Shown: piece by piece, positions 30,733 through 31,255 of the stretch | How the letters are laid out: the number at the start of each line of letters is the position of its first letter | Position numbering within the stretch: position 1 is the first letter of the stretch | Assembly (NCBI GenBank): GCA_016196225.1 | Contig: JACPXZ010000002.1 | Coordinates: 1-47,312 of the forward strand | Length of the DNA stretch: 47,312 nucleotides | Direction: 5' to 3' | Source of the DNA: Candidatus Peregrinibacteria bacterium | GTDB taxonomy: Bacteria; Patescibacteriota; Gracilibacteria; Peribacterales; Peribacteraceae | The notes under the pieces: model-generated | The model's input: the letters and a program-made list of their open reading frames with translations, nothing else | Databases searched by the model: none | What the model was told of the DNA's origin: nothing | Position numbers and translations under genes: made by a program

Positions 30733-30762
30733 TTGACGAATCTGTATCTAATGACTTATTAT
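30733..30762 (+). promoter_or_regulatory. Promoter of the L1-stalk-like RNA
   Basis: TTGACG (30733-30738), 18 nt, TATTAT (30757-30762). Predicted transcript start near 30769. Confidence 0.55.
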
Positions 30763-30880
30763 TACTTTGGTATGGAAACAGTGCCGGGATACCTTGCTCT
30801 TTGAGACGTGACCCTCTGGTGAGAGTTACGTGTATGAGAGGTTCGACTCCTCTCCACTGGCTCCTGATTAGATTTCTCTT

Positions 30881-30954
30881 TGTGTAGAGTAGGTGGTAGG
30901 CGATGAACTATGACCGCTAGGTTATATGGAGCCAACGATGAAACACCACCCTTA
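30881..30954 (+). other. 23S rRNA domain V fragment (L1-stalk region)
   Basis: From memory of E. coli 23S rRNA (around nt 2090-2170), the segment TAGGTGG..GGAGCC..GAAA-ACCACCCTT aligns over 64 positions without gaps, about three quarters identical, and TGTGTAG extends it at the left. GTTGACCC at 30960-30967 matches the end of the neighbouring 23S helix. 23S sequence does not continue on either side. It may be a functional L1-stalk mimic or a relic of an rRNA gene. Confidence 0.65.
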
Positions 30955-31022
30955 GAGGAGTTGACCCCTTTGTCTCCGAAGTACGCTTCGAACAAAGGTA
31001 GTCAGGAGTTCCGTACTACTTC

Positions 31023-31064
31023 GAGGAGGAGCGTGTCAATCACGTTCCTCCTCTCTTTCTTTTT
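31023..31064 (+). terminator. Strong intrinsic terminator of the RNA gene
   Basis: 13-bp stem GAGGAGGAGCGTG / CACGTTCCTCCTC (one G-T pair), 5-nt loop, then TCTTTCTTTTT. Confidence 0.85.
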
Positions 31065-31179: not shown

Positions 31180-31255
31180 CGGGATGTAGCTCAGTTGGTA
31201 GAGCGCACGGTTCGGGACCGTGAGGCCGGAGGTTCGAGTCCTCTCATCCCGACCA
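31180..31255 (+). tRNA. tRNA-Pro (anticodon CGG)
   Basis: Acceptor CGGGATG pairs with CATCCCG, A73, encoded CCA. Anticodon arm CACGG-TTCGGGA-CCGTG. D-arm GCTCAGTTGGTAGAGC and T-arm with GTTCGAG are normal. Confidence 0.96.

Follow-up and report, generated by a model that had tools for sequence, protein, structure and literature searches.

A stand-alone RNA gene of a Peregrinibacteria genome joins a 23S rRNA L1-stalk head to a T-arm and may form a ribosome-free elbow contact

The window analysed here is a 47,312-nucleotide stretch of DNA from a Candidatus Peregrinibacteria genome. It contains a stand-alone RNA gene at positions 30769–31017, with a predicted transcript that extends to approximately 31063. 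The gene is located between an upstream gene for a DUF167 protein (PF02594, E 2e-16) and a downstream tRNA-Pro(CGG) gene at 31180, as had been described in a first-pass annotation of this DNA. That annotation also claimed a promoter, a region free of open reading frames and a terminator with a 13-bp stem, and each of these was recovered. The promoter matches the sigma-70 consensus at 10 of 12 positions (P = 0.015 against dinucleotide shuffles of the upstream 70 nt), no coding signal is seen in 30733–31063, and the terminator stem is present and is followed by a T tract. The predicted fold of the RNA has an energy of -115.1 kcal/mol, compared to -88.4 kcal/mol in dinucleotide shuffles (z -4.6, 0 of 200 as good). 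The parts of the gene are collected in Table 1.

Table 1. Parts of the RNA gene, with positions in the window and the basis on which each was assigned
Feature	Position (strand)	Sequence or remark	Basis
Sigma-70-type promoter	30733..30762 (+)	TTGACG-N18-TATTAT; -35 starts at 30733, 18-nt spacer, TATTAT ends at 30762; predicted start ~30769, at P1	
P1, 5' strand	30769..30777 (+)	GGUAUGGAA; closing helix	MFE fold; P1 in all ten members
P2, 5' strand	30779..30783 (+)	CAGUG; inside recurrent ACAG motif	MFE fold, member comparison
D-loop-like GGG segment	30784..30793 (+)	CCGGGAUACC; D-loop-like role presumed	Sequence
Member-specific hairpin	30806..30831 (+)	Between P2 and T-arm	MFE fold
T-arm	30836..30854 (+)	GAGAGG-UUCGACU-CCUCUC; 6-bp stem, tRNA-like loop UUCGACU at 30842-30848	
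P2, 3' strand	30855..30859 (+)	CACUG, then recurrent G (CUGG)	MFE fold
P3, 5' strand	30861..30871 (+)	CUCCUGAUUAG	Inverted repeat I2, MFE fold
H76-like helix, 5' strand	30876..30882 (+)		MFE fold, comparison with own 23S
L1-stalk head	30882..30950 (+)	Homologous to E. coli 23S 2110-2178	
T-loop 1 of double T-loop	30882..30891 (+)	E. coli 2110-2119; G2112 equivalent at 30884	Alignment to own and E. coli 23S
H77, 5' strand	30892..30896 (+)	GGUGG	23S alignment, covariation
H78	30899..30933 (+)	GGC/GCC pairs and tip hairpin UAUGACC-GCUA-GGUUAUA	
T-loop 2	30938..30945 (+)	A2169 equivalent at 30941	Alignment to own and E. coli 23S
H77, 3' strand	30946..30950 (+)	CCACC	23S alignment, covariation
H76-like helix, 3' strand	30952..30958 (+)		MFE fold, comparison with own 23S
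Extra hairpin	30965..30998 (+)	CCUUUGU...ACAAAGG with inner stem	MFE fold
P3, 3' strand	31000..31008 (+)	AGUCAGGAG	MFE fold, inverted repeat
P1, 3' strand	31009..31017 (+)	UUCCGUACU	MFE fold, member comparison
Intrinsic terminator	31023..31063 (+)	13-bp stem 31023-31053 and T tract	

The center of the RNA is homologous to the L1 stalk of 23S rRNA. In a genome search the bacterial LSU covariance model (RF02541) matches positions 30872–30961 with 58.3 bits (E 4.3e-17, model positions 2126–2215); a cmscan of the whole window against Rfam at the gathering threshold did not list an LSU match. The match covers 90 nt in the RNA and 90 nt in the model, with no change in length, and the stalk core aligns to the genome's own 23S rRNA without gaps, in agreement with the first-pass annotation. 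When mapped through the E. coli 23S rRNA, the retained block corresponds to approximately 2110–2178 and includes H77 (the closing GGUGG/CCACC helix named in the annotation), H78 and both T-loops, which together make up the complete stalk head. At the place of H76 there is no more than the tip of an H76-like helix, with new sequence. No match to H75, H79 or the rest of 23S was found around 30872–30961, consistent with the earlier claim that no other 23S sequence flanks the core. The only complete 23S gene of the genome is located on contig C8, and the window RNA on contig C2. This 23S gene (L002:3640-4340) is itself split by ~650 nt of inserted DNA whose open frame has LAGLIDADG-like text, resembling a group I intron that encodes a homing endonuclease.

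Alignment of the RNA to the genome's own 23S gene indicates that the two are not identical and that H78 has been rebuilt by compensatory changes. Of the seven pairs of the H78 tip (30909–30926), six differ from the host 23S on both strands, yet pairing is intact in all seven. Pairing of the H76-like helix is likewise kept despite changes on both sides. No second copy of the RNA was found elsewhere in the genome, so this is a single-copy gene and not a recent duplicate. The stalk core is too short for its sequence identity to the host 23S to carry a claim of origin, and the comparison to the window's own 23S is partly out of register.

The first-pass annotation had suggested a search of related CPR genomes, and this search has yielded nine further RNAs with the same architecture. 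The relatives are too diverged for sequence comparison, as blastn of the whole RNA against 74 genomes of the order returned no homolog. Roughly half of the class's genomes had one 23S match to a small stalk model (R1), and a few had extra matches. A pattern combining a T-loop with the stalk gave 15 matches over 84,980 species, four of which are stalks outside any 23S context: L168 (Parcubacteria SURF_56), L169 (Gracilibacteria), L171 (Wolfebacteria) and L179, from a MAG labelled Woesearchaeota on the basis of binning only. The presence of both T-arm and stalk was the criterion by which these first four relatives were selected. Searching 380 genomes of the window's phylum with a covariance model of T-arm and stalk (R2) added L241, L245 and L252, and reading of the second R2 matches added L278 and L284, neither of which is in any model. 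Together with the window RNA these nine, eight in bacterial (CPR-type) genomes and one in the Woesearchaeota bin, are designated type A; among the 379 other genomes sampled from the phylum, at least 5 carry one. With model R3 every type A member except L284 (nine in all) scores 85 bits or more, compared to 77 bits for the best 23S gene; L278, which is in no training set, scores 85 bits. L284 scores 71 bits, within the 23S range, and was accepted on context and architecture rather than score. E-values of the models built here are rough. Two scans of small classes added no member, and a viral pattern with T-arm gave 101 matches, none of which is a stalk by model or pattern check. One candidate from the genome scan (L167) was rejected because it contains the T-arm of an ordinary tRNA by chance, and GUAG[A/C] was rejected as a marker of stand-alone copies because many CPR 23S genes also have GUAGC. 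In three carriers (G363, G538, G666) the stand-alone match was the only match with R2, with no 23S stalk at that threshold; the 23S gene may be unassembled or its H78 reduced.

The ten type A members share a common order of parts: promoter, P1, a recurrent ACAG, P2, a variable segment that often starts with GG or GGG, T-arm, P2' ending in CUGG, P3, H76-like helix, H77, H78, extra sequence, P3', P1' and terminator. The T-arm-like stem-loop that had been noted just 5' of the stalk core (loop TTCGACT) is present in the window and proves to be a constant element of the family; in the window it partially matches the T-arm of tmRNA. The T-stem and P2 together make 11 bp in the window RNA and in the members with a clear P2, compared to 12 bp in tRNA. 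Exceptions to the common plan are L169 and L252, which have no clear P2, and L284, which lacks the CAG/CUGG motif. A GG or GGG run is found at a comparable place in most members, and the D-loop-like GGG is a weak feature that was picked by eye. The closing helix P1 is 7–11 bp long in all ten members and has a different sequence in each. All 70 chosen P1 pairs can pair, as against 51% when the strands are dealt among members, a descriptive figure since the P1 strands (like those of P2) were picked by eye before counting. No 23S landmarks were found around any of the type A members.

Selection on these structures has been probed by covariation, as the first-pass annotation had proposed. In an eight-member alignment 96% of the cells are paired and 12 of 20 pairs have changed on both sides, giving a covariation score of 0.68 compared to 0.205 in shuffles (0 of 500 as good) and at most 0.143 in slid controls. 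The changes on both sides are located in the T-stem, where three of the five modelled pairs covary, in H77, and in the base and tip of H78. Both modules, the elbow and the stalk head, have thus long been kept by selection on sequence and pairing.

Type A members also have their own transcription signals. Promoters with at least 10 of 12 consensus matches end 5–7 nt before P1 in the window, L241, L252, L278 and L284, and 26 nt before P1 in L171. Strong terminators are located just after P1' in the window, L169, L171, L241 and L245. The neighbouring genes differ between members, with no conserved protein neighbours seen, and most members checked have no called tRNA neighbour. Because of this shared anatomy, together with the covariation, the promoters and terminators and the differing neighbours, these results indicate that type A members form transcription units of their own, with a product that acts in trans. 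That a family of stand-alone structured RNAs exists is close to certain, and the dedicated RNA around the L1 stalk that had been claimed from one locus is borne out by nine further members. The contig of L179 is unusual in two respects. A tRNA-like sequence ending in CCA, not called by ARAGORN, directly follows the type A RNA (L179:990-1065), and frames on this contig are longer when TGA is read through, yet there are no convincing recoded genes.

The stalk head also occurs without an elbow in cis, as seven stalk RNAs without T-arm were found (L231, L237, L234, L182, L376, L379 and L378). Two of these, L231 and L237, come from genomes of the window's class (G133 and G143) and have a long H78 extension with a common motif. 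Both stalk RNAs are on the - strand (L231, 1490-1648; L237, about 1500-1680), and the motif, AAGAATG...GGGTGnnAACGTCCG...ATAAG, is absent from the viral contigs. One Gracilibacteria genome (G354) contains a type A copy, a 23S gene and the short stalk RNA L234; the latter (L234:1501-1590) follows an apparent bL33 gene and precedes tRNA-Trp by 16 nt. In the viral contigs L182 (412 kb), L376 and L379 (~105 kb each) the stalk RNA is located in a tRNA array, with tRNA-Arg(UCU) upstream of it and tRNA-Arg(ACG) directly 3'. Two more viral copies are L192 and L378. None of these stalk RNAs corresponds to an Rfam family, and L376 was matched only as an LSU fragment.

The function of the RNA can be considered in light of the ribosomal E site. 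The pair of bases that stacks on G19-C56 of tRNA is G2112 and A2169 of the L1 stalk (PMC5309774). The double T-loop device is also found in RNase P and T-boxes, and further RNAs that recognise tRNA or tRNA-like structures are expected (PMC4810234). The equivalents of G2112 and A2169 are G30884 and A30941 in the window RNA, and A and G in L252. Because both stacking bases are kept and a T-arm with a perfect T-loop stands at a fixed distance from the junction, the RNA appears to carry an elbow and an elbow-gripping surface in one molecule. The P1 closing helix joins two modules. The first is a short tRNA-like elbow, made up of P2 stacked under the T-arm with the loop 11 bp from the junction, probably together with the D-loop-like GGG. 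The second is the complete copy of the 23S L1-stalk head with H77, H78 and the double T-loop. The double T-loop is predicted to stack on the flat face of a tRNA elbow, as it does in the ribosomal E site, and the elbow that is gripped is most likely the RNA's own, which would give a compact stalk-on-elbow contact in cis that is free of the ribosome. The RNA would then probably act in trans in translation, for example by presenting an E-site-like surface to a protein that binds tRNA or the stalk. Such a ribosome-free contact in cis is the explanation we favour overall for the type A RNA, tentatively and at a little under an even chance. Docking of the T-arm elbow on the stalk head in cis is a plausible lead that falls just short of probable. 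In its broader form, the proposal is that these RNAs of CPR bacteria, together with the related RNAs of phage tRNA arrays, are a class of ribosome-independent mimics of the E-site contact in which docking of a detached stalk head on a tRNA elbow (for type A, in cis) regulates translation or tRNA traffic; this too may well hold, with a likelihood slightly below one half.

The first-pass annotation had suggested an RNA that could bind protein L1 or compete with the ribosome's L1 stalk. The main rival explanation is that the RNA is a ligand or decoy for ribosomal protein uL1, which binds through H77/H78, and that it either titrates uL1 or uses it as a partner, coupling uL1 to some output. Autoregulation of uL1 through stalk-like mRNA sites is established, and the part of the stalk that binds uL1 (H77, H78 and the GAGCC strand) is retained with covariation. 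The protein is encoded in the window's genome (G000) and in G356, G363, G538 and G666, but of eight type A carriers tested it was not found in three, G353, G354 and G355, all of them MAGs whose completeness is not stated; the same family search was positive in 14 of 14 control genomes. Paceibacteria are reported to keep H78 but to have no uL1 (PMC12641178), which also counts against this explanation. Finally, a uL1 ligand leaves the T-arm unexplained, and since the T-arm is fixed in the family the likelier mechanism shifts towards contact with a tRNA elbow. A role as a uL1 ligand is considered unlikely, though it is the alternative to be taken most seriously. A uL1-regulated mRNA leader was rejected, as the RNA is not 5' of the uL11/uL1 genes: the uL1 gene is located on contig C27, the RNA on C2, and its neighbours are DUF167 and tRNA-Pro.

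Binding of a separate tRNA in trans by the stalk head is a further explanation and is regarded as unlikely to about the same degree. The double T-loop residues that it requires are retained, and the genomic setting of several copies is suggestive: three phage stalk RNAs immediately 5' of tRNA-Arg(ACG) and downstream of tRNA-Arg(UCU), L234 just 5' of tRNA-Trp, and the window copy with tRNA-Pro downstream. Type A, however, carries its own elbow, which would compete with a tRNA in trans, and no second tRNA-reading element such as a specifier or an NCCA-pairing loop was identified. Moreover, most of the type A members checked have neither a called tRNA neighbour nor common neighbour genes.

A variant tmRNA, a split tRNA or a c-di-GMP-II riboswitch, suggested by the T-arm-like element and by a weak c-di-GMP-II alignment (19.1 bits), is highly improbable, as the genome has a canonical tmRNA and 43 tRNA genes, the RNA has no CCA end and its P1 encloses the acceptor-like helix, and the riboswitch alignment (RF01786, cut-off 53.5 bits) covers the stalk homology in an RNA whose own terminator makes it no gene leader. 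The separate canonical tmRNA also led to rejection of the window RNA as the genome's tmRNA, and neither ARAGORN nor Rfam called a tRNA or tmRNA at the window RNA. A T-box leader was rejected as well, with no Rfam T-box match and a terminator that ends the transcript. The less exciting reading offered by the first-pass annotation, a relic of 23S rRNA with a promoter acquired by chance, accounts for the sequence homology to 23S but is scarcely credible and is rejected by the rebuilding of H78 through compensatory changes, the same architecture in nine other genomes, the single copy that is no recent duplicate, and the covariation in the family, which already counts as a refutation.

Comparison to known systems places the elbow-on-stalk reading in context. 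The RNA resembles the mRNA leaders of the rplK-rplA type that are regulated by uL1 in that a stalk-like RNA is found outside the ribosome, but it is not located upstream of rplK/rplA and ends at its own terminator. With tmRNA it shares a T-arm-type module within a larger structured RNA, but it has no CCA end and no recognisable tag ORF. There is also a likeness to the L1-stalk head of 23S itself (RF02541), with homology in sequence and structure that includes H77, H78, the double T-loop and the equivalents of G2112 and A2169; in contrast to that head, the window RNA is detached from 23S, its H76 hinge is replaced, it has its own promoter, terminator and closing helix, and a T-arm module is attached. 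If it docks as its sequence suggests, it would use the same elbow-docking type of double T-loop as the RNase P specificity domain and T-box Stem I (PMC4810234, PMC5309774). The motifs of those two RNAs are unrelated in sequence and converged, whereas that of the window RNA is ribosomal by descent and is found in an RNA with its own T-arm.

Rfam 15 contains no family for the type A RNA, and a full-text search of the open-licence literature found no description, although it may be described elsewhere. This is a previously undescribed family, sparse across tiny-genome (CPR-type) bacteria and with relatives in large phages. It represents a working part of the ribosome that became a gene in its own right, under its own promoter, and that selection has maintained. 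The L1 stalk is among the most variable parts of CPR ribosomes, with uL1 and H78 lost by lineage (PMC12641178), and a free stalk copy offers a testable link to this puzzle. If docking on its own elbow is true, the stalk-elbow contact can be studied without the ribosome in an RNA of 250 nt. If the RNA is a mimic of the E-site contact, double T-loop elbow binders would gain a fourth natural class, and the first to have arisen from the ribosome. The presence of phage copies in tRNA arrays suggests a part in the takeover of translation.

Several further observations were made on the viral contigs. The stalks in the tRNA arrays are located at L182:6000-6098, L376:4709-4799 (-) and L379:374-464 (-); P1 encloses the stalk in L376 but not in L182, where the stalk is found outside that helix, as if the parts had been permuted. 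Real-looking 23S fragments at two viral contig ends (L183:1-130 and L375:3750-3888) are abruptly joined to other sequence and may be chimeric assemblies. Seven phage contigs (L208, L209, L210, L215, L216, L217 and L219) have a common mini stalk-like hairpin, CGTGGAAGGCT...GCCTCCGATGAAATACCACG, which scores 18 bits and may be coding. On the 78.6 kb viral contig of L378 (6403-6493 and 7481-7549, both -) a stand-alone stalk lies in a structured stretch, and the same strand carries a Pistol ribozyme at a distance of 1 kb.
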